This document shows, one piece after another, positions 2,682 to 19,657 of a stretch of 20,193 nt of DNA. A program made the position numbers and the translations under genes. Under the pieces are notes generated by a model. It made no database searches and was not told the origin of the DNA. It saw nothing but the letters and a program-made list of their open reading frames with translations. Location of the stretch: IMG/VR virus record IMGVR_UViG_3300012920_000372, positions 1 through 20,193 of that record. One strand, given 5' to 3'. Every line of letters begins with the position of its first letter. Within the stretch, counting starts at the first letter, position 1. This DNA is from a virus.

Positions 2682-2906
2682 TTACTTGTTGTTCGACCTG
2701 TTCGTCTTCTTGCTCTGGATTCTTAGGTTAGAGCGAGAGTTGTTCTTTGGGTTTCGGTCAGCATGGTGCACATCTTTGCCGTCACCCTTCTTCGCCCTTC
2801 CAGCCTTAATCATCATCGCCCGGGCCTTGTTGCGCCCCGCTCGGCGTTTCTTCTGCTTAGACTTTTTGTGATATGAGTCGTATTCTTTTCTGTAATTCCT
2901 AGCCAT
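2682..2906 (-). CDS. Small HNH-like protein beside the terminase, 74 aa
   Basis: A basic N-terminal half (starting MARNYRKEYDSYHKK) is followed by a compact HNH-type segment, DVHHADRNPKNN then SNLRI. This has the pattern H-H-x-D-x-N-P-x-N-N-x(3)-N-L, typical of beta-beta-alpha metal nucleases, at about residues 45-63. There are no zinc-binding cysteine pairs, so it would be a minimal HNH domain. Its ATG at 2906 overlaps the small terminase stop by 8 bases (ATGGCTAG), which decides this start over a longer frame beginning at 2984. HNH proteins next to terminases in HK97-like phages assist DNA cutting during packaging; the position suggests a similar role here, but that is inference. It could also be a stand-alone homing-type nuclease or a DNA-binding derivative. 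Confidence 0.72.
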   Translation of the reverse strand: MARNYRKEYDSYHKKSKQKKRRAGRNKARAMMIKAGRAKKGDGKDVHHADRNPKNNSRSNLRIQSKKTNRSNNK

Positions 2907-3123
2907 GAGCTGCTTCGTCAAACGGTAAGATTTTAACAAGGTTGTCCATAGGGTTATCCTTGGACAGACCTGCGTGGATGCCATTGTCCTTCAAGAGCTG
3001 CCTAGCGGCATTTAGGTCGCTTGGTGCAGCTTCTCCTGACTCAATACGAGTAATGAACTCGTTAATGAGTAGGGCCTGAAGGCTTTTGAGTTGTTCTTCT
3101 TGGTTGTCTACTTGTCCTTCCAT
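2899..3123 (-). CDS. terS: Terminase small subunit (T7 gp18-like), 74 aa
   Basis: This is a small acidic helical protein, MEGQVDNQEEQLKSLQALL followed by INEFITRIESGEAAPSDLNAARQLLKDNGI. That helix-turn-helix composition is typical of T7-type DNA maturase A, which recognises phage DNA and regulates the large subunit. T7 gp18 is 89 aa. An in-frame GTG at 3153 would add 10 residues, but the ATG at 3123 gives a product matching the family start. AAGGA lies immediately before this ATG, too close for ideal use. The start lies inside the 3' end of the holin-like gene and the stop overlaps the HNH-like gene, so translation is probably coupled. The call rests on position between a 17.5-like holin and terL plus sequence character. 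Confidence 0.85.
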   Translation of the reverse strand: MEGQVDNQEEQLKSLQALLINEFITRIESGEAAPSDLNAARQLLKDNGIHAGLSKDNPMDNLVKILPFDEAAHG

Positions 3124-4858: not shown

Positions 4859-7800
4859 TTATTTTCTGTTGATACTTTCGTAATAGTGAGCGCGGAGCTT
4901 AGGATACTCTTCAAGAACCTTGTTTTTTGCGTCAGCGCTATAGAACGCAAGAATTTTACCAATAGCCATGCTTCTTGGATGCTGTTTACCAATAGTCATG
5001 TCTGTAGCTGGAGGTAACTGCTGGTAATCGTTAGATTGAATTAGCGCTCTTAAAGACTGCCTTAGAGTGCGCCCTCCAAGAACGCGTGTAGACATTAGCT
5101 CTTGATGCCTGTCGTAAGCCGTCTGACCTGCGGGTTCATTGCGATACATTGTTGAGTCTATCGTTCCCGCTGCCCATGTGTGGCTTCTCTGGTTAAACCC
5201 TCTGCCTAGAGCTAAAATTTCTTGGTCAACAATATCAAACGAATGAGGAACTTGCTGCCCTGCTCCAACAAAAGACGGAAGGAATGGGCCTTGCTTGCGC
5301 ACTTTTTCTCCAAGCCAGTTTCTTTTAGGCATCAATGAAGCGCTACTCCAGATTGTCTCTGGAACGTCCGGTCTCATGTAAGCCGGTATCCTCTTCATTA
5401 CGTGGTCAAGAATCTTTCTTGCTTCGTAAATTTGAGGTTCTTCTTCAACAAGGTTTTCTGTCCACGTAAGACCAGTGGGAACCATTCCACCAAGAATGCT
5501 TCCAGCCATCTTGTCAGCCTGAGTCGGGTCTTTAAACAGCTCCATAACATTGTAGAGTCCTTCAACATAAGACCCGTTTGTAATGTTGTTATAGAAGGTT
5601 AGCGACAGTATCGCATACACCTTTTGAATCCCTTTCATAGCCGCCGCCTTCTCGTTCGTATCAGCGAATAGCTCCTGCCCTTCGTTTCTAAACGCGGCGT
5701 CGGTCATGTGCACTGTGTCCGCAAATATACCAAGTATAGTGGCAAATGGGTCCATCTTTTGATAACTAACCCATTTAGCGTCTTCTCCGCTACCAACTAA
5801 AATAGAATAAGGCTTTTTACCTACAGCTTCCCAAGCTCGCTTTGCTGACAATCCTTTCGGGGGAGAGCCTGTGACTCTGTCTTTTACAAGCTCCACTGTA
5901 TAAGCAACCGAAGCAGTCATCAGAGCGGAAGTTGTAAGCCGACCAATGTTCTCAGCGGTTTTCACAGCGTCTCCTTGAATCTTCAAGTCTCGGTGCTCTT
6001 TTACCATCGCTTCAGTAAATGGAGTATCTGCGTAAAGGCGCTGAAGCTCTTTCTGCCACCCTTTGCCGCCCTCCTTATTAGCCTCCATTCTTTTTAGAGC
6101 CTCTTTGTTTATTCTATTTTCATAGGCAGCTTTAGACTCATTTTTTCTGTGGCGTTGCTTGAGATACTGGTGAGCTTGTTCGTGCTCCATAACAAACTCT
6201 TCAAAATCTTCGTATGACTGAATATACTCGTCCGGTATCGGCTTCACGCCTTTAACTTTGGGATTTTGCCAAGCTTTTCTCTCATACATTTCACGGATTC
6301 TATTTTTGTCTATGTGTATAGTTCCTGTTGGTCCTTCGGTAGACCTAAAGAATGCCGCTGCTTTTGATTCAGGAATTACCTCTTCAATAATCTTTGGCTC
6401 GTTGTATGGAGAGTTTTCATACTTACTTATCGCTTCGTTTGGAGCGCCTACTCCGGGGGCCTTTCCTTCTGCTACAGCCGCATATCTCTTAGTTGTTTCT
6501 ACGGCATACTCTCCGCTTAGAAACGGGTTCAAAGAGCTGCGATAACCTTTGTCAGTTTGGAACTGATGAAAACTCTCGTTAAACTCTCTAGCTTTACTGT
6601 GGTGGACCCTTCCTAATCCCGGTAAAGGAAGAACACGACTCAACGCAAAAGTAAGAATATTCGTAGGAGTTCTAACAAACGGAATAGCAAATGCTAACCA
6701 CGGAGAAGCCATGGCCTGAGTAGACACCCAGCGAGCAAAGGCGTTTTCTGGAGTGTTTGTAAAAGTGTTTATCAAAGACCAGTCTGTTGCCCGGTCAACC
6801 AGCATATCTCTTTGGTATGTAGTCTTGTAAATAGTGCCGTCCTGAAGACGCATATTGTTATTGTAAAAGTTTTCGTTCATGTATTCGTCGATGAACGCTG
6901 TCCTCTTACCAAACCTAAGTCCTTCATCATCAGCCTTTGCAGAAGCTTCTTTGTAGACGTTCGCCTCATTCATAAAGCGACCTTCCTTAGTCACATAGTT
7001 CTCAAAGTTATCTCTAACGTAAGCAGCAATTTCTGTGGGGTTTTTTATGCCTCTACGATGTGCCTCCATCGCTAGGTCGCTCTTAACATACGAACGATAA
7101 TTCCACTGCTTAAACAACTCATCACCCGCCATCAATACCCTTGAAGGTCCTGACACAAGATTACCCAGCCAGTTACCGGCTGTAGTTAAAGGATTCTTTG
7201 AGTCTGCGTCTCCAAAAACCCACCCACTTTTAAGGTCTTCAAATCGGTTATCCGAATAAGCAACAAACCCAGCTACGCTTCTTGGCTCTCCAGCTTTTAA
7301 GCTAATAGCCGCATACTTCCACGCGTCTAGGAAGGACTCCATATCAAACGTAGCCTTAATACGGGCTTTAAGCAGGTCTGCGTTACCAGTCATGCCGTAT
7401 TGACCCATAGCTCCCGCCATCATCTCAAAGTCTCGGAATGCTTTCATCAACGCACTACCAACCATATTAACACCCCAAGTAACGGGGCTACTCAGAAGAG
7501 AGTTAAGGTAGTAACCCATTGTCCTAGCAAACCCGTTTCGAGAGTCTGCACCAAGCTTGCTTAAGGCCGCGCCAATGTCGCCGGAGTTTTTCGCTTGTTC
7601 CAGCTCTCTAAGAAACTTTGATTCGCTTCGAGACCCTCTAATGCCTTTGCGGTAAAGGGATTCTCTTAGTTCTTGAACGGTGCTTTTTTTCGCGTTTGGG
7701 TCAGCGTCTTTCTTAAGAGCAAACCCTAAATCGCGCGATTTATACTTCATCCCTCCGCTGCCTGTCCCTTCGTAAATAAACCTACGTTGAAGCATTCCCA

Positions 7801-9685
7801 TCGAAAGGTGGGTTCCGTATTGCGCCCAGAGTTCCTTGGCAGCTAACAAAAAGTCGAGGTTCTGGTAAACATCTGTAAGAAGGCTTTTGTAGTCTTTTTC
7901 AATATCCCTAACTTTACCGTTTTTTACACCTTCGTATGTAATGGTCTCTTTTGTTGACTTAGCTTTAATGGCTCTGTCCACGGAATGCCCCACTTCTTCG
8001 GCTAGGTAATTGTAGAGCTTATAAATAGCGTTCTGTTCAGCGTAGATTTTTTCTAGGTCTTCAACATTACCCCTAGCGTTCTCTAGCTGTTGCTGAGCTA
8101 AGTCTCTGTCAAATAAATCCGTGTGGTCTAACTCTAATAGAAACCCTTCGTTCCTGTCGTAAAGCTCTTGAGCATTTTTAGGCTTGCCGTGCAACTCTGT
8201 GCGTAAAGATACGGCTTTTTTACTAACCGCTCTAAACAGAGCCGTAAGCCCTTCAGTGCTCCTTAAGCCGTCAAACAATTTACGCGCAGACATTGCCGCT
8301 TGGTCTCCGGTAGTCTTTAAGAAAGTTTCAGCGTTAGATTCTACGACCGCTTCCACAACTCCTTGAAGGTCTAGAGTTGTTTGAAGAGCGTCTTCCCCTC
8401 CTTTAATAATGTCTTTAGCGATTTGCTTTTTAGTTGCCAAAGAACCAGAGACGCTTGGAATATCCATGTCTCCATATTCAGTAAGAAACTCATCTACCTG
8501 AGCTTCTGTCATTCCGTCCACATCCTTTTCTTTTGCGACCTTTCCGTTTATTTGTATAGGTGCTGCCTTTTTCTTTGGCGGCATTTCACCACCGCCTAAA
8601 GGAATTTCGTCAACTTCGGTCTTAAACGGCGACTCTTCAGTTTTGAAGGGGGCAGGAAGGGAGCCATTCTCTCGGAGAATCTTTTCTCGCGCTATGGTAG
8701 CATTGAGGTCCGTCATGTCTTTTATCGCGTCCTTGTCGCTTGCAACGTCCGCTATAAATTCTCTCTCAGCCGTTTCAATAGCTTCTTCTTCAGGCGTTCC
8801 TTTTGAGACTAGCTCGTTTTTACGCCGAAATTTCCTAAACACTTTTCCTAGAACACCAATAGCTCCGCCAGCCACACCACCAACAAACAAACCCTCAATA
8901 GAGTTCTTCAACCTCTCTTCGTATTCGTTGTTGTCCTGCTCAGGGTCATACGACAAGTAATCCAGTAACTTGCTGTCAGCTCCCCATTCTGTCACTAGGT
9001 TTGAAAGACGAGCTTCTTGTCCTTTAAAGGCAACAAAGTCTGACACAGCGCCTGCATAGCCAAAGACCGCCGCTCTACGGGCTGCTGGCTTCATCTTAGC
9101 AAGCTTTTGCATGGTGGCTGCGCCTAGCGTCCTGTTGCCCTTAGCGACTGAGGCTACACCTTCTAGTTGCTGAGCTTGCTTAGCCCCTTTAGCGGCTTTG
9201 GCGGTCTTTGCCATTTTAGCCACCTTACCAAGCTTCGCGGCTTTAGACACCAACCCCGCAGTCCCGAGACCGGGAATCATACCTATACCAAACTGCACAA
9301 TGTTTTCGCCAAAAGAACCTACAATAGTTTTTGACTTCCCAAACAGGCTCCATTCGTCTCTGTCCCACTTAGAGCCAAACAACCCTCCTACACTTTCAAC
9401 AAAACCTTCTACTCCTCTTAACCCAAACAAACCTACATCAGCGGCAAAATCTCCAAAGGACGCTCCTTCTTCTTGAGGAGGCTCTGGGGTAGAATCAACA
9501 GAGTTCTCATAACGAGGCTTAGCGTCTTCAATAGTTTTACCTTTGATTTGTTCATCTAAAGCGGACTCAGGAGTCGTTTGCTGTGGAGTGACGTTAGTCA
9601 CGGCTCCAGACACATTCGACCCGTCGATGTTTAACGCCAAATCGCGTTGCAGGTTGTCTTCTGTTACAGAAATAGGGTTCTTCAT
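4859..9685 (-). CDS. Internal virion protein D (gp16-like ejection protein), 1608 aa
   Basis: This is the largest gene, in the T7 gene 16 position between the gp15-like gene and the fibre. T7 gp16 (1318 aa) is ejected into the cell and helps form the DNA conduit across the envelope. The N-terminal 100 residues are polar. Residues about 135-180 are a Gly/Ala region plus a Lys-Ala-rich helix (LGKVAKMAKTAKAAKGAK). A Gly-rich hydrophobic stretch, VGGVAGGAIGVLGKVF, follows near 270-285. Further hydrophobic parts lie near 685-700, 1005-1030 (PFVRTPTNILTFALSR) and 1250. I find no lytic transglycosylase signature at the N-terminus. HEQAH at residues 1168-1172, followed by glutamates at 1183, 1189 and 1195, looks like a zinc-peptidase helix pair. 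Role is assigned by position and character; the peptidase is inference. Confidence 0.9.
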   Translation of the reverse strand: MKNPISVTEDNLQRDLALNIDGSNVSGAVTNVTPQQTTPESALDEQIKGKTIEDAKPRYENSVDSTPEPPQEEGASFGDFAADVGLFGLRGVEGFVESVGGLFGSKWDRDEWSLFGKSKTIVGSFGENIVQFGIGMIPGLGTAGLVSKAAKLGKVAKMAKTAKAAKGAKQAQQLEGVASVAKGNRTLGAATMQKLAKMKPAARRAAVFGYAGAVSDFVAFKGQEARLSNLVTEWGADSKLLDYLSYDPEQDNNEYEERLKNSIEGLFVGGVAGGAIGVLGKVFRKFRRKNELVSKGTPEEEAIETAEREFIADVASDKDAIKDMTDLNATIAREKILRENGSLPAPFKTEESPFKTEVDEIPLGGGEMPPKKKAAPIQINGKVAKEKDVDGMTEAQVDEFLTEYGDMDIPSVSGSLATKKQIAKDIIKGGEDALQTTLDLQGVVEAVVESNAETFLKTTGDQAAMSARKLFDGLRSTEGLTALFRAVSKKAVSLRTELHGKPKNAQELYDRNEGFLLELDHTDLFDRDLAQQQLENARGNVEDLEKIYAEQNAIYKLYNYLAEEVGHSVDRAIKAKSTKETITYEGVKNGKVRDIEKDYKSLLTDVYQNLDFLLAAKELWAQYGTHLSMGMLQRRFIYEGTGSGGMKYKSRDLGFALKKDADPNAKKSTVQELRESLYRKGIRGSRSESKFLRELEQAKNSGDIGAALSKLGADSRNGFARTMGYYLNSLLSSPVTWGVNMVGSALMKAFRDFEMMAGAMGQYGMTGNADLLKARIKATFDMESFLDAWKYAAISLKAGEPRSVAGFVAYSDNRFEDLKSGWVFGDADSKNPLTTAGNWLGNLVSGPSRVLMAGDELFKQWNYRSYVKSDLAMEAHRRGIKNPTEIAAYVRDNFENYVTKEGRFMNEANVYKEASAKADDEGLRFGKRTAFIDEYMNENFYNNNMRLQDGTIYKTTYQRDMLVDRATDWSLINTFTNTPENAFARWVSTQAMASPWLAFAIPFVRTPTNILTFALSRVLPLPGLGRVHHSKAREFNESFHQFQTDKGYRSSLNPFLSGEYAVETTKRYAAVAEGKAPGVGAPNEAISKYENSPYNEPKIIEEVIPESKAAAFFRSTEGPTGTIHIDKNRIREMYERKAWQNPKVKGVKPIPDEYIQSYEDFEEFVMEHEQAHQYLKQRHRKNESKAAYENRINKEALKRMEANKEGGKGWQKELQRLYADTPFTEAMVKEHRDLKIQGDAVKTAENIGRLTTSALMTASVAYTVELVKDRVTGSPPKGLSAKRAWEAVGKKPYSILVGSGEDAKWVSYQKMDPFATILGIFADTVHMTDAAFRNEGQELFADTNEKAAAMKGIQKVYAILSLTFYNNITNGSYVEGLYNVMELFKDPTQADKMAGSILGGMVPTGLTWTENLVEEEPQIYEARKILDHVMKRIPAYMRPDVPETIWSSASLMPKRNWLGEKVRKQGPFLPSFVGAGQQVPHSFDIVDQEILALGRGFNQRSHTWAAGTIDSTMYRNEPAGQTAYDRHQELMSTRVLGGRTLRQSLRALIQSNDYQQLPPATDMTIGKQHPRSMAIGKILAFYSADAKNKVLEEYPKLRAHYYESINRK

Positions 9686-9703: not shown

Positions 9704-12700
9704 TTACTTACCCTGTGCTCTTTTGCGGATTTCAAAAAGAGGGTGAGTGTATTGGTATTTTAGGAATTCCTTAAGACCTTCTTTGGTGTCTTCGTATCCC
9801 CACAAACGTGCCATTTTATTTAAGCCTTTATCGTCTGCGTCTAACGCGGACTTAATAACATCCATGTTGTAGCTTTTGATGCCACCCTTAGCGTTATAGT
9901 TAACACCATCTACAGGTAGGTCTGTCACTGGTGGCTTAATTCGACTTAAAAAGCCTATGTCAATGGTGCTGTCAGCAGGGTCTCCTTTTACAGCTAACGT
10001 CTGCCCCTCAACAAATGCTCCGTCTTGGTCCGTTGCTCTTACGTCTGGTAATAGACGGTCTGTGTAATAGTCCGCATAAGCTCCTCTAGCTAAATTAGGA
10101 GACTTTAAGTAAGTTGGGCTTGTCGGGATTTGGCGTATGAACTTACGTCGATACTCTTTTTTGTATTTATCAAATTCTAAGTAACGCTCTCTATACCTGT
10201 TTAAGTCTTGCCCGCCGGTCTCCTCAATTTTGTCGTGAATCTCGTTAAACCTGTCTTCTGAAGAACGAATAAGAACTCTTCTACCCATAGAGCCGTTAAC
10301 CATAGTAGATGTGTAGTAGGCCATAGCTTCGTCTGCGCTAATTCCATACTCCACCTTGGCTTCAAAAGCGTTTAGAACTTCTCTTTGAGCAGCGCTATAC
10401 TCTTCTTGGGTAAACCCTTTGCCGGGAAAGAAGGTTCCTCGGGTCATGTGGTCGTATATATTGCTAGTTACCGCTTTCTCTGCCACCTCGTAAGCTAATT
10501 CAGCTTGACCTTTTTGCTCATCTAAAGCTTCAAGAAACCTCTTACTTTGCACTGAGTCTTCTTTAGTAAACTTTTTCTGCTTTCCCGAAAGCTTAGCTTT
10601 ATCAGCTCTAATTTTTTGCTGGCTTTTGTATGCCGTTTCTACGGTCTTATAAAAGTCACGGGCCGTGCTTGGTGCAGGGACTTCTTTGGTTTCCGATATT
10701 CCTTGAGAGTCTGTTTCAGCAATTCTTCTTAAGTTAACAGTCTCTCCTTTGCGGAATTTACGCATACGCTCATCGCTCACTTGTTTCTGCACCATGTCGT
10801 GAACTTTTTCCATAAACCCTCTGCTACTAAGGTCTACTAATGTAGGACCAAGCTGGTCTTTAAAGTCAGCTAATGCAGGGCTTCTGCCATTTTCTTCTGC
10901 AAAGGTTTCAACAAAATCATCTATAGCTTGCCGCGACTCTAGGTCCGTGTCGCTTTGCGCTTTTTGAAGAATTACTGCTATTTGCTCTCCGCTTAACGCA
11001 CCCACTACAGGCAAAGGAAATTCTCCTGTTCTTTCGGGTCCTTGCGTTACGTTTCGGTCATTTAGCGCGGCTCTTACATCATCAGAAACTGTAGTTTGAC
11101 CGTCTTCGTCTACTAAAATATTCATCATAGCTTTTGCTAAAGCGTCGTCTTCCCCTGTTGCGTATACGTTAGGGTTTGAATACGATTTCATAGTAGGCGC
11201 TATGACCTGTTGAGCCACAGCTAGGCGTTTTTCTTGGTTAGTGCGAGTCGCTTCAACAAGAGAGTATAAGTTTTCGTTAGCCATGATTCTTTCCTCAAAA
11301 GAAAATTCCTCATACTCCTTAAGTAACTCTTGAACGTGAGTAGATTCTATGTCCTCCGGTGCAAACATCCCCCTTATAGCTTCTATGTTGTTTGTGTTTG
11401 GGTTCCCTAGCAGAATATCTAACTCAGTATTAGCTACAGTTCCTTGATTATGCATAAAGGCAGAAACATAAGGCTGAAGTTTGCTTAAAAACACAGCGGA
11501 TTTTTTACCTGTGTTATTTAGCTCTCTTTCTTCAATAGACTCTTCGGCGGCGACAATAGCCGCAAAAAGTTTTTGCCCTACGGTGCCTTCTTTAAACGAA
11601 ATTTTACCACGGTATTTGTAGTCCTTGTCCGAGTCTGGGAGGCCAAGCATAATCTTAGCTTTTTCCAGTTCTTTTAGCGCTACTAGAGGCTTGCCTCCTT
11701 TTCCAAAGTCTAATGCTCTGTCTATTGAACCAAGCACAGACTGACTAATAAACCCATCTAACTCATCAGGGTTTTTTTGACGAATAGTGTTCCACCAAGG
11801 GGCTGAAAGAAGAGTATCGTAATTGACCTCTCCCGTCTCTCCCTCAAGTCCTCCTAAAGTAGAATTGTAAGCAGCGTCTAGGTTCAGGTTAGCTTGCTGT
11901 TGAAAGTCGTTAAGAGAAGCTCTCTCAACATAGTCGAACACTTCACGCTTATACCTTGGAAGAGTTTTATTATACCCGTCTGCAATAGCGGTATTGAACG
12001 CCCCTTCAGCGGCTGAGTTTGCCGTTATCTGGCGTTTGTCTTTATAGTCTTGCGTCCACTGAGCTACATACTGGTTAAACTCGTCTTCACTAGGTGTAAA
12101 CACGCCGTCCCCTCCCTCGGGGCCTTTCTTCCACTCTTCTAAGTCGTCCGCTAAGTCATCGAAGTAAGTGGCAGCCGCTTCGTTTCCTCTAAATATTTCA
12201 CGTATCTCGTTTTTAACAACAGGGTGCTTTTGAGCAACTGGAACCAAAGCGTCCGCTCTAACCATTTCGACTTGTGCATCTTTTCTTTGTTGGTCCGCTT
12301 CTTCGACATACTCACTTGCGTGCGAGGCTGCAAACGCCCTGTCTTCAGGGTTCATCCTACTAAGCCTATCCAACTCAAAAGCTTCCGCAGTCTGTTGCTG
12401 AGCTATGTCCATTTGCGCCGCCAGTGACGCACTACGCGCATCTGCCTCTTGCCCTTGGAGCTGCACCAGCGCAGTCTGATGGTCTATCTGAAGACCCTGT
12501 TGCTCCATTTCAAGCTTCTTGTCTTCAAACGCTTTTGCTTGAGCTAACAAACCACTTACCGACGATAACGCCCCAGCAAGCCTTCCTATCGTAGTATTGC
12601 CAGCCGTTGGAGTTTCTGCGACAGCAGGAGTCCACCCTCCGCCTCTGGCGGGAGAGGGCGTTAACCTAAATGCTTCCCTGCTGAATTCTTTTGGTTGGAC

Positions 12701-12751
12701 AGGGTCGTTTGAAAGCCCCAACTGCTTTGCTATAGATGTTTGTTTAGCCAT
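9704..12751 (-). CDS. Internal virion protein C (gp15-like ejection protein), 1015 aa
   Basis: This large, mostly helical and charged protein occupies the T7 gene 15 position. In T7, gp15 (747 aa) is ejected with gp14 and gp16 and forms the periplasmic part of the DNA conduit. The N-terminus (MAKQTSIAKQLGLSN) leads into long predicted helices rich in Gln, Glu and Ala (about residues 60-180), and helical character continues to the end; no enzyme motif or transmembrane segment is evident. It is about 270 residues longer than T7 gp15. A good Shine-Dalgarno sequence (GGAGGA) overlaps the end of the gp14-like gene, and the two genes are separated by one base. The stop is 18 bases before the gp16-like start. 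Assigned by synteny, since sequence similarity in this family is weak. Confidence 0.87.
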   Translation of the reverse strand: MAKQTSIAKQLGLSNDPVQPKEFSREAFRLTPSPARGGGWTPAVAETPTAGNTTIGRLAGALSSVSGLLAQAKAFEDKKLEMEQQGLQIDHQTALVQLQGQEADARSASLAAQMDIAQQQTAEAFELDRLSRMNPEDRAFAASHASEYVEEADQQRKDAQVEMVRADALVPVAQKHPVVKNEIREIFRGNEAAATYFDDLADDLEEWKKGPEGGDGVFTPSEDEFNQYVAQWTQDYKDKRQITANSAAEGAFNTAIADGYNKTLPRYKREVFDYVERASLNDFQQQANLNLDAAYNSTLGGLEGETGEVNYDTLLSAPWWNTIRQKNPDELDGFISQSVLGSIDRALDFGKGGKPLVALKELEKAKIMLGLPDSDKDYKYRGKISFKEGTVGQKLFAAIVAAEESIEERELNNTGKKSAVFLSKLQPYVSAFMHNQGTVANTELDILLGNPNTNNIEAIRGMFAPEDIESTHVQELLKEYEEFSFEERIMANENLYSLVEATRTNQEKRLAVAQQVIAPTMKSYSNPNVYATGEDDALAKAMMNILVDEDGQTTVSDDVRAALNDRNVTQGPERTGEFPLPVVGALSGEQIAVILQKAQSDTDLESRQAIDDFVETFAEENGRSPALADFKDQLGPTLVDLSSRGFMEKVHDMVQKQVSDERMRKFRKGETVNLRRIAETDSQGISETKEVPAPSTARDFYKTVETAYKSQQKIRADKAKLSGKQKKFTKEDSVQSKRFLEALDEQKGQAELAYEVAEKAVTSNIYDHMTRGTFFPGKGFTQEEYSAAQREVLNAFEAKVEYGISADEAMAYYTSTMVNGSMGRRVLIRSSEDRFNEIHDKIEETGGQDLNRYRERYLEFDKYKKEYRRKFIRQIPTSPTYLKSPNLARGAYADYYTDRLLPDVRATDQDGAFVEGQTLAVKGDPADSTIDIGFLSRIKPPVTDLPVDGVNYNAKGGIKSYNMDVIKSALDADDKGLNKMARLWGYEDTKEGLKEFLKYQYTHPLFEIRKRAQGK

Positions 12752-12752
12752 G

Positions 12753-13439
12753 TTATCTTCCTCCAGCTATTCTCTGAGTTGTTCCTATTCTAAATCGCCG
12801 TGCTCGTTCTGCACTAAGCCCAGCACCTTGTCTTGCAATGCCTACGTTTTGCGCGGCTAATCCCTGTTGGCTTTGTCTAAGATTTGCTTGTTGAGCGTAT
12901 AGCCCTTCCTGCATTCCTCTAAGAGCGTCTGCTTGGTAAATAGACTGAGTGTCCTGCACCGTAGCGATAGCTGTTCCAAGAAGGTTAGGTCTGTTTATCG
13001 GGCGGTTTATTCGAACCATGTTTTGTGTAAAGCCAAGGCCAGCCCCTCTAAGCCTAAAGTGGCTAGTAGCTCTCCTCATCCTAGCCTGACGCTCTAACGC
13101 AGTTTGGTAGTTAGCGTTAGCTTGCATATAGTGAGCAACAGCCAGTCCTGATGCGTTACCTTCAACACCACGCTCTTCGGCGCTGGTCATAAGAGTGCTT
13201 ATAGCTTCCTGAGCTTCTCTTTGCGCTTTCTGCGCTTCAAAGGCGTCCGCAGTGTCTTCTTGTGCTTCGTTTAGACGCTCAGCAGACGCTTCGTGTTGAT
13301 ACCTCTTCAACTCGTTTAAAGACGCTTGGTATTGCGCACGCTCTTGCTGGCGAGCTGCTTTGGCTTGAGCCGCATAATTAGCAACCCCTGACGCAATGGT
13401 CAGCGCTGCTTGAGCCGCGACTGGTAATACTACACACAT
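12753..13439 (-). CDS. Internal virion protein B (gp14-like), 228 aa
   Basis: The N-terminal hydrophobic, Ala-rich segment (residues 3-25, VVLPVAAQAALTIASGVANY) is followed by a long Gln/Glu/Ala/Arg-rich helix, about 26-95. A Gly-containing middle with an Arg-rich patch (QARMRRATSHFRLRGAG) comes next, and the C-terminus is Gln/Arg-rich (QQANLRQSQQGLAAQN). This is the layout of T7 gp14 (196 aa), which inserts in the outer membrane as the first part of the ejection conduit. The hydrophobic N-terminus is a family feature rather than a signal peptide. The start is two bases after the gp13-like stop; the stop supplies the ribosome binding site for the gp15-like gene. Confidence 0.88.
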   Translation of the reverse strand: MCVVLPVAAQAALTIASGVANYAAQAKAARQQERAQYQASLNELKRYQHEASAERLNEAQEDTADAFEAQKAQREAQEAISTLMTSAEERGVEGNASGLAVAHYMQANANYQTALERQARMRRATSHFRLRGAGLGFTQNMVRINRPINRPNLLGTAIATVQDTQSIYQADALRGMQEGLYAQQANLRQSQQGLAAQNVGIARQGAGLSAERARRFRIGTTQRIAGGR

Positions 13440-17440: not shown

Positions 17441-17698
17441 TCAGCAGCGCCACTTTCTTAAAGCCAGCGCCTTTCTTGTTGGTTTCCCGTTTTTCCTCAT
17501 AGGTCCTTTTACTCCGCGCATACGGGCGCAGAAAGAACGCTTCCTAGCTGCGCGTTTGCCTTTAGGTTTACGCTCGGTCACAGGGGCTTTGAGGTTAGAC
17601 CCTGTCTTACGATTATAATAATCACGCCCCTTCTGATTAAGACCACCAGTCTTAGACTTGTGCTCAACTCTGAGGTTTGCTCGCTTTCTTGCAGCCAT
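17441..17698 (-). CDS. Small basic Cys-containing protein, 85 aa
   Basis: This Lys/Arg-rich protein has the central block GSNLKAPVTERKPKGKRAAR, then SFCARMRGVKGPM (about residues 56-68) and RKALALRKWRC at the end. The block with its two cysteines is highly patterned and, from memory, widely shared by small proteins in marine phages and algal viruses under a domain-of-unknown-function label; I cannot verify which. It could bind nucleic acid or be a minor virion component. It lies directly after the capsid terminator, only 10 bases from the T-tract, so its expression depends on read-through. Its nearest Shine-Dalgarno-like sequence, GGAGG at 17714-17718, lies within the terminator stem, 15 bases before ATG. 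It is followed by tail tubular A after 6 bases. Confidence 0.82.
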   Translation of the reverse strand: MAARKRANLRVEHKSKTGGLNQKGRDYYNRKTGSNLKAPVTERKPKGKRAARKRSFCARMRGVKGPMRKNGKPTRKALALRKWRC

Positions 17699-18879: not shown

Positions 18880-18902
18880 AAGCGTTATCCTTTCGGGCGC
18901 TT
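18880..18902 (-). other. Hairpin just after the amidase stop
   Basis: AAGCG (18902-18898) and CGCTT (18884-18880) form a 5-bp stem in the minus direction; an inner CC-CGAAA-GG can add a small capped helix. It overlaps the amidase stop codon. No proper T-run follows, so it may be a weak terminator, an mRNA-end stabiliser or a processing site between the lysis and capsid genes. Confidence 0.3.
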
Positions 18903-19482
18903 AGGCTACTAATTCGTTACTTTTCGACAGGAAATTATTTACACCCCTAGCGTATGCTTGCGCTAGGCGGTTGCGGGAGGTGGCGTGTTTGTTCCACTCC
19001 GAGTGATTAGAACCAAAGAATGGCTCACACACCACGGCAGGGCACTTGGTTCTGACCAAGAATCCCCCACCCCGCGAAAATCTTTTAAGGGCTTTTATGC
19101 CTCTGTTTTTGCTGTTGTATTCAGATACTACCTCCACTTGGAGGCACCCAGCGAGCTTCTTGCCGCTGGTTGAGTTGTGGTAATAAAGCATCTCACAGCC
19201 TTCTGCTGTCGGAGACGCTGAGTTAAAATGCAGCTCTAGAGCAAGGGTAACACCGTCATTGTGCATTCTGTCAGATAACCAACGCATAGAGGAGCCATAG
19301 GAGCCTCCCTCGTAGGCGTCATACACAATAGAAGCAATACCCATATCGTAGAGGTGGCGCTTCAGGAGAGCCCCTACGCGCACGTTGAATGCCCATTCTG
19401 ACATACCACCAACACCCCACGCTCCTTGCTCTCCTGCTCTAGAATGACCGATGCAGATACCTACAACGTCACCGGGACTCAA
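18901..19482 (-). CDS. N-acetylmuramoyl-L-alanine amidase (Amidase_3 type endolysin)
   Basis: This zinc amidase would cut the bond between muramic acid and the peptide of the cell wall during lysis. From a TTG at 19482 it has 193 aa and begins right at the first strand, VVGICIGHS. The expected metal and catalytic residues are present: H13 in GHS, E29 in GGMSEWAFN, H85 in ALELHFNSAS and E153 in VVCEPFFGSN. Amidase_3 covers the whole product; there is no separate wall-binding domain. No in-frame ATG precedes the first metal ligand, so the start must be non-ATG. The frame is open back to TTG 19602, through GTG 19578, but that would add a basic stretch overlapping the lipoprotein gene. From 19482 the overlap with that gene is 14 bases. 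No signal peptide is evident, so holin-dependent release is expected. Confidence 0.85.
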   Translation of the reverse strand: MSPGDVVGICIGHSRAGEQGAWGVGGMSEWAFNVRVGALLKRHLYDMGIASIVYDAYEGGSYGSSMRWLSDRMHNDGVTLALELHFNSASPTAEGCEMLYYHNSTSGKKLAGCLQVEVVSEYNSKNRGIKALKRFSRGGGFLVRTKCPAVVCEPFFGSNHSEWNKHATSRNRLAQAYARGVNNFLSKSNELVA

Positions 19483-19657
19483 GGTCGTTGACGTAGTGGA
19501 GGATTTCAGCGATTGTTTCTTTTTCTTCAAGAGAGAAAGAATGCTGCTCCAACTTTTGAATAAACCCCGGAATTTCACTCTTCTTAATCGTCGTGCACCC
19601 AACGATTGATACGCTTATCATTATCGTCGTGGCGGCGCTGCTTAATCTTTTTCTCAT
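19469..19657 (-). CDS. Small lipoprotein, possible o-spanin-like, 62 aa
   Basis: The product starts MRKRLSSAATTIMISVSIVGC and continues TTIKKSEIPGFIQ. This is a textbook lipoprotein signal: basic N-terminus, hydrophobic core and lipobox SIVGC with cysteine 21. The mature part is about 42 residues, acidic and helical (KLEQHSFSLEEKETIAEIL). The gene starts inside the 49-aa gene upstream in another frame and ends inside the amidase gene. Nested lipoprotein genes beside endolysins are often outer-membrane spanin subunits, which fuse inner and outer membranes at the last step of lysis. However, the mature part is not Pro-rich and its partner is unusually short, so spanin function is a guess. I chose ATG 19657 because it gives the full signal peptide. 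Confidence 0.65.
   Translation of the reverse strand: MRKRLSSAATTIMISVSIVGCTTIKKSEIPGFIQKLEQHSFSLEEKETIAEILHYVNDLESR

Follow-up and report, generated by a model that had tools for sequence, protein, structure and literature searches.

Zincin domains are already known from giant polyvalent proteins of phages and plasmids and from the virion RNA polymerase (vRNAP) of phage N4. In the polyvalent-protein MPTases, three strands are followed by a helix with the HExxH and another with a glutamate, and an N-terminal helix has also been described (Iyer et al., 2017; PMC5512222). Both autoproteolysis and host targets have been proposed for these enzymes, autoproteolysis being favoured with reference to DdrB of phage P1 (PMC5512222). 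The C1 domain of N4 vRNAP also carries an HExxH motif, HELVH; N4 is a short-tailed phage, and the chain concerned is an RNA polymerase that is ejected as a giant virion protein (PMC12633501). The third relevant system is T7 gp16, an internal virion protein with an N-terminal SLT transglycosylase domain, of which residues 411-1118 reach the host cytoplasm in the T7 model (PMC8954989). The SLT domain is not a defining feature of the wider gp16 group, since it is also missing from P22 and Sf6 gp16 (PMC8954989).

The window analysed here (the whole stretch of DNA under study, a virus record of 20,193 bases) is from a marine virus of bacteria. Read 5' to 3' on the minus strand, genes for Amidase_3, the major capsid protein, a DUF6321 protein, tail tube, nozzle and a gp13-like protein are followed by gp14-like, gp15-like (by position) and gp16-like genes and then by those for a T7-type tail fibre, HNH and terminase. 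The order of the gp14-, gp15- and gp16-like genes and the tail fibre is thus that of T7. The gp14-like ejection protein (12753-13439, minus strand) matches Pfam T7_gp14 (E = 4.2e-14). The probable gp15-like ejection protein (9704-12751, minus strand, 1015 aa) is assigned from its place between the gp14- and gp16-like genes, and no Pfam, PHROG, NCBIfam or significant PDB match was found for it; it is about 30% identical to its counterpart in the relative L003, the corresponding values being 62% for gp16 and 78% for the nozzle. The gp16-like protein, internal virion (ejection) protein D of 1608 aa, is encoded at 4859-9685 on the minus strand with its ATG at 9685. It matches the internal virion protein family phrog_6651 (E = 7.4e-21) and, in tblastn, 'internal virion protein D' of Roseobacter, Pelagibacter and Desulfovibrio autographiviruses, and is classed as a T7 gp16-like ejection protein on gene position together with this similarity. 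Nevertheless, it differs from T7 gp16 itself, to which it has no BLAST similarity. Elsewhere in the window, the Amidase_3 (N-acetylmuramoyl-L-alanine amidase) gene upstream of the capsid gene (18901-19602, minus strand) probably encodes an endolysin, and a small HNH_3 endonuclease-like gene (2682-2984, minus strand) lies between the terminase and tail fibre genes. The DUF6321 protein (17441-17698, minus strand, 85 aa; Pfam E = 9.3e-25) matches the C-terminal ends of far larger proteins in PHROGs.

A segment of the gp16-like protein is missing from several of its relatives. In the window and six relatives, PFxxTP and the conserved block that follows it (DPF or EPL) lie 306-317 aa apart, as against 93-114 aa in CRP-403, HTVC025P, ProddE, CRP-118 and MedDCM-OCT-S45-C18, which indicates an insertion of about 200 aa. 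The initial annotation had proposed an inserted domain between PFVRTPTN (residues 1002-1009) and NGSYVEGLYNVMELF (residues 1370-1384), and the block spacing bears this out, the segment being absent from all five relatives. When the protein is compared with cultured phages by tblastn, the gp16 backbone aligns on both sides of the HExxH segment and the segment itself stays unaligned. From the PFxxTP-to-DPF spacing, the insert spans approximately residues 1040-1235 (5981-6568, minus strand). It is preceded by gp16-like backbone of residues 1-1039 (6569-9685, minus strand) and followed by backbone of residues 1236-1608 (4859-5980, minus strand); phrog_6651 is matched at 1232-1403, and residues 1241-1597 are 31% identical to phage S45-C18 (tblastn). 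The dN/dS of the insert, 0.07 and 0.11 against two close relatives, is similar to that of the rest of the protein, so the insert is under purifying selection.

The insert contains HEQAH (residues 1168-1172; 6170-6184, minus strand), the predicted zinc-binding and catalytic motif and the sole HExxH in the protein. The predicted third metal ligand is Glu1189 (6119-6121, minus strand), in the arrangement HExxH-x16-E followed by x3-N-x2-A; it lies in YENRINKEALKRM (residues 1188-1200) and is nearly invariant in an alignment of 24 sequences. The motif and its quoted flanks stand where they had been placed initially. By itself the motif is weak evidence because 2.7% of same-composition shuffles of the protein contain an HExxH; it is the conservation in relatives that takes it beyond chance. 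Within the window lineage (n = 7; the window, L001, L002, L003, L010, L011 and L012) every chain has exactly one HExxH, of the form HE(Q/R/H/K)AH, in which the middle residue varies and the other four are constant, and the six relatives keep both this motif and Glu1189.

More distant members were collected by scanning IMG/VR with a DNA pattern of DFxxFVxxHExxH, which added about 20 distinct large proteins (521-2319 aa, several ending at contig ends) as well as clear chance matches in short frames. In the 24-sequence alignment, the conservation of D, F, F, V, H, E and H is by construction for the members found in this way, and conservation claims therefore use the others only. A motif-independent set was assembled by using six backbone peptides to collect homologues of the L030 gp16. 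The HExxH and the helix-2 glutamate are kept in all 11 of these that cover the domain (L127-L136 and L138; L137 ends short of it), some of them, such as DYADFVLLHEFHH and DFLDFIIMHELHH, lying outside the reach of the DNA pattern. When 12 homologues including these 11 are aligned, the HExxH, the helix-2 glutamate and its alanine are invariant, although invariant columns number only 11 of 50 in the core and 597 of 1414 overall. L026, found by other patterns and tblastn, has HEYQH. The conservation on which the initial proposal depended thus holds in the six relatives and in eleven backbone-collected homologues. Of the three second-helix glutamates that it had named, however, E1183 and E1195 are not kept in the wider family, which leaves E1189 as the conserved one.

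One clade departs from this pattern. In the Hodr-type pelagiphage proteins (L005 and L013-L015) the domain is kept, with KEVYR or KEIYR in place of the HExxH. Pelagibacter phage EXVC031P Hodr (WDQ27578.1) and L013-L015 have a homologous domain in a gp16-like protein, at 30% identity, although there it is near the N-terminus. Judged by its sequences, this clade has lost the HExxH and is a natural motif-less clade, so catalysis is not always needed. That such proteins retain the remaining domain signature is what would be expected if the insert had a structural and not a catalytic role, its zincin-like fold being preserved whether or not a structural metal is bound. We regard this explanation as unlikely for the family, since outside this clade the HExxH and the glutamate show no variation in any member collected independently of the motif, whereas most of the core is variable.

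The predicted fold agrees with a zincin-like core. In a first AlphaFold2 model (11 sequences), only residues ~1092-1206 (6068-6412, minus strand) form a confident core, with 10-residue block means of pLDDT of about 69-92. A second model, of a 137-residue domain from 24 sequences, has a mean pLDDT of 79 and a pTM of 0.75, and its topology is three strands, a short helix, a long HExxH helix and the Glu1189 helix. The HExxH is within helix 73-93 and Glu1189 in helix 100-119 of this model, in which His1168, His1172 and Glu1189 would make up the predicted metal site. The strands and two C-terminal helices agree with those of the polyvalent MPTases, while the remaining helix, which comes after strand 3 in the model, may differ in position from the published one. 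Both domains are found in giant invasion-associated proteins. There are also differences. The first is the chain, which here is T7 gp16-like; 'gp16' and 'internal virion' are absent from the text of PMC5512222. The second is the second-helix signature of the window domain, E-x-R-x-N-x2-A. The likeness to the MPTases, of which 12 clades have been described, is one to their published description. A non-protease HExxH enzyme, such as an alphaKG-HExxH-type hydroxylase that depends on iron and alpha-ketoglutarate, finds some support in that radical-SAM-linked HExxH proteins are brought up for the N4 domain in the paper on the N4 vRNAP structure (PMC12633501). We consider such an enzyme very unlikely here, as the short layout of three strands, HExxH helix and Glu helix fits the published zincin core.

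Searches of named families and solved structures did not place the domain. None of the Pfam, PHROG and NCBIfam models identifies it, and no fold or sequence match was found in the PDB, although named-family searches may miss remote homologues. Neither Pfam MPTase-PolyVal (PF18818) nor any other Pfam peptidase was matched; in one such search the controls were also silent. Foldseek against the PDB returned nothing at E <= 0.001: the top matches, baculovirus cap proteins, were non-significant and were set aside, and CapP and DPP III were among the weak matches only. Against viral models, five large viral proteins were matched with probability 1.0 and E <= 0.001, and the next neighbours, which were non-significant, included a lethal-factor-like, several SprT-like and IrrE-like proteins. 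ImmA/IrrE (Pfam M78) likewise has an HExxH and, one helix further on, E-x3-N-x2-A, but the match was discarded: the hhalign probability of 90% is lost, and the profile similarity is non-significant, once seven selected motif columns are masked. This score is a selection artefact, because the M78 seed is itself found with the same DFxxFVxxHExxH DNA pattern; motif-keeping decoys averaged 88% against M78. The C1 domain of N4 vRNAP has no detectable sequence similarity to the window domain and was rejected as a homologue at an hhalign probability of 0.4%. Pattern scans of genome contigs gave no relatives with the patterns used, tblastn of a phage collection with domain sequences gave none but Hodr, the one cultured carrier found and a motif-less one, and tblastn of plasmids with one domain sequence gave none. 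Of the zinc-peptidase reading first proposed, a zincin-like and probably catalytic domain is supported by predicted fold, conserved HExxH, Glu1189 and insertion, while a match to a named family or solved structure does not accompany it.

At least four insertion sites for the domain can be distinguished along one homologous gp16 backbone, and each is occupied by a separate domain clade. In Hodr coordinates, the domain is found near 254-395 in Hodr itself, before ~575-587 in L034, L060 and L076, at ~651/664 in L030, L031, L038, L081, L089 and others, at ~947/956 in L044 and at ~997/1010 in L074 and L065. At ~651/664 the Hodr backbone is continuous and has no domain. Such different sites on one backbone suggest, from sequence comparison, that the inserted domain is a movable cargo module. 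On the domain tree, in which several supports are modest and some branches long, the site labels need six changes, which is the minimum, so that one origin per site is compatible with the data; labels for the partial proteins L054 and L071 are less certain. A clash between domain tree and backbone is not claimed as proof of transfer, the tree being compatible with one insertion per site. The insertion site of the window protein is unmappable in these coordinates, there being no alignable similarity to the Hodr-type backbone or to T7 gp16 outside the domain.

Some relatives carry further cargo. The gp16-like proteins of L003 (5505-11609, 2034 aa) and L012 (2820-9653, 2277 aa) have extra segments at about residues 390-1030 with NADAR- and DUF4326-like matches, which are below the Pfam cut-offs and supported by PHROG, and L012 additionally has a DprA/SLOG-like match (phrog_768) and phrog_2072/NCBIfam A1S_2505. 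DUF4326-SLOG-NADAR fusions have been reported for viruses, in phage conflict proteins (PMC9503650). As in the polyvalent proteins, the module thus occurs alongside unrelated effector-like domains. Several unrelated effector domains are combined on one polypeptide in L003 and L012 but not in the window protein, which has no NADAR, DUF4326, SLOG or phrog_2072 match.

The initial annotation also saw no transglycosylase and hinted that the insert replaces it. No Pfam, PHROG or NCBIfam SLT match was found in the gp16- or gp15-like proteins of the window, with T7 gp16 as positive control detected at E = 1.7e-31; the first observation is thus upheld. The same absence would fit a peptidoglycan endopeptidase that substitutes for the missing enzyme, which was the function suggested first. 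Nevertheless, the insert-free relatives CRP-403, HTVC025P, ProddE and CRP-118 have no Pfam SLT match either, so the two events, losing SLT and acquiring the domain, are unlinked and the hint of replacement is not supported. Within Pfam sensitivity, the absence of SLT is general in this phage group and unrelated to the insert. The window moreover has its separate Amidase_3 gene, and the insert is central to C-terminal, a region that is cytoplasmic or membrane-associated in the T7 model (PMC8954989). Because the central part of gp16 reaches the host cytoplasm in that model (PMC8954989), peptide cross-links are the least likely target, and we hold a peptidoglycan endopeptidase to be highly improbable.

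The reading that we consider reasonably probable, from the model and the sequence, is that residues ~1092-1206 form a zincin-type metallopeptidase module that is packaged in the virion, injected with the DNA and cuts a host protein or the ejection proteins. In this reading a metal ion, probably zinc, would be bound by His1168, His1172 and Glu1189, with Glu1169 serving to activate a water molecule. The module would be self-contained within the ejection-protein backbone; its packaging and delivery with DNA are expected from ejection-protein homology. If the homologues act like T7 gp16, the inserted domain most likely meets cytoplasmic proteins, an exposure predicted from the T7 model. Its substrate may be a host protein early in infection, or else the ejection proteins themselves, for their release or rearrangement. 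As a sub-case, the domain could cleave the ejection protein that carries it, or else gp15/gp14, either while still in the head or once ejected, for cargo release or refolding. Self-processing of this kind is in line with the preference of Iyer et al. for autoproteolysis in polyvalent MPTases, with the several cargo modules in one chain of L003 and L012 and with the single HExxH per chain of the window lineage. However, N4 vRNAP also contains an MPTase domain and goes into the virion unprocessed (PMC5512222), and the shifting position of the domain in the backbone does not indicate a single fixed cut. We regard self-processing as possible but rather doubtful. Owing to the variable site and the uncut packaging of N4 vRNAP, a host target is ranked slightly above it.

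In open PMC texts we found no paper in which T7-like internal virion proteins were connected with a metallopeptidase or HExxH domain, and no HExxH-domain insertion is known in T7 gp16. The zincin-like clade described here, which lies within the gp16-like ejection proteins of marine phages, is a separate and unannotated one. The varying site on one backbone and the motif-less clade provide built-in comparisons for its function. Tentatively, a portable metallopeptidase module may move from site to site and from backbone to backbone among T7-like ejection proteins, in which case the gp16-like proteins of marine podoviruses would deliver a protease with the DNA (and some relatives also NADAR, SLOG and DUF4326), probably against host proteins or defences. 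The finding suggests that the T7-like DNA-ejection machine is also an enzyme delivery vehicle.
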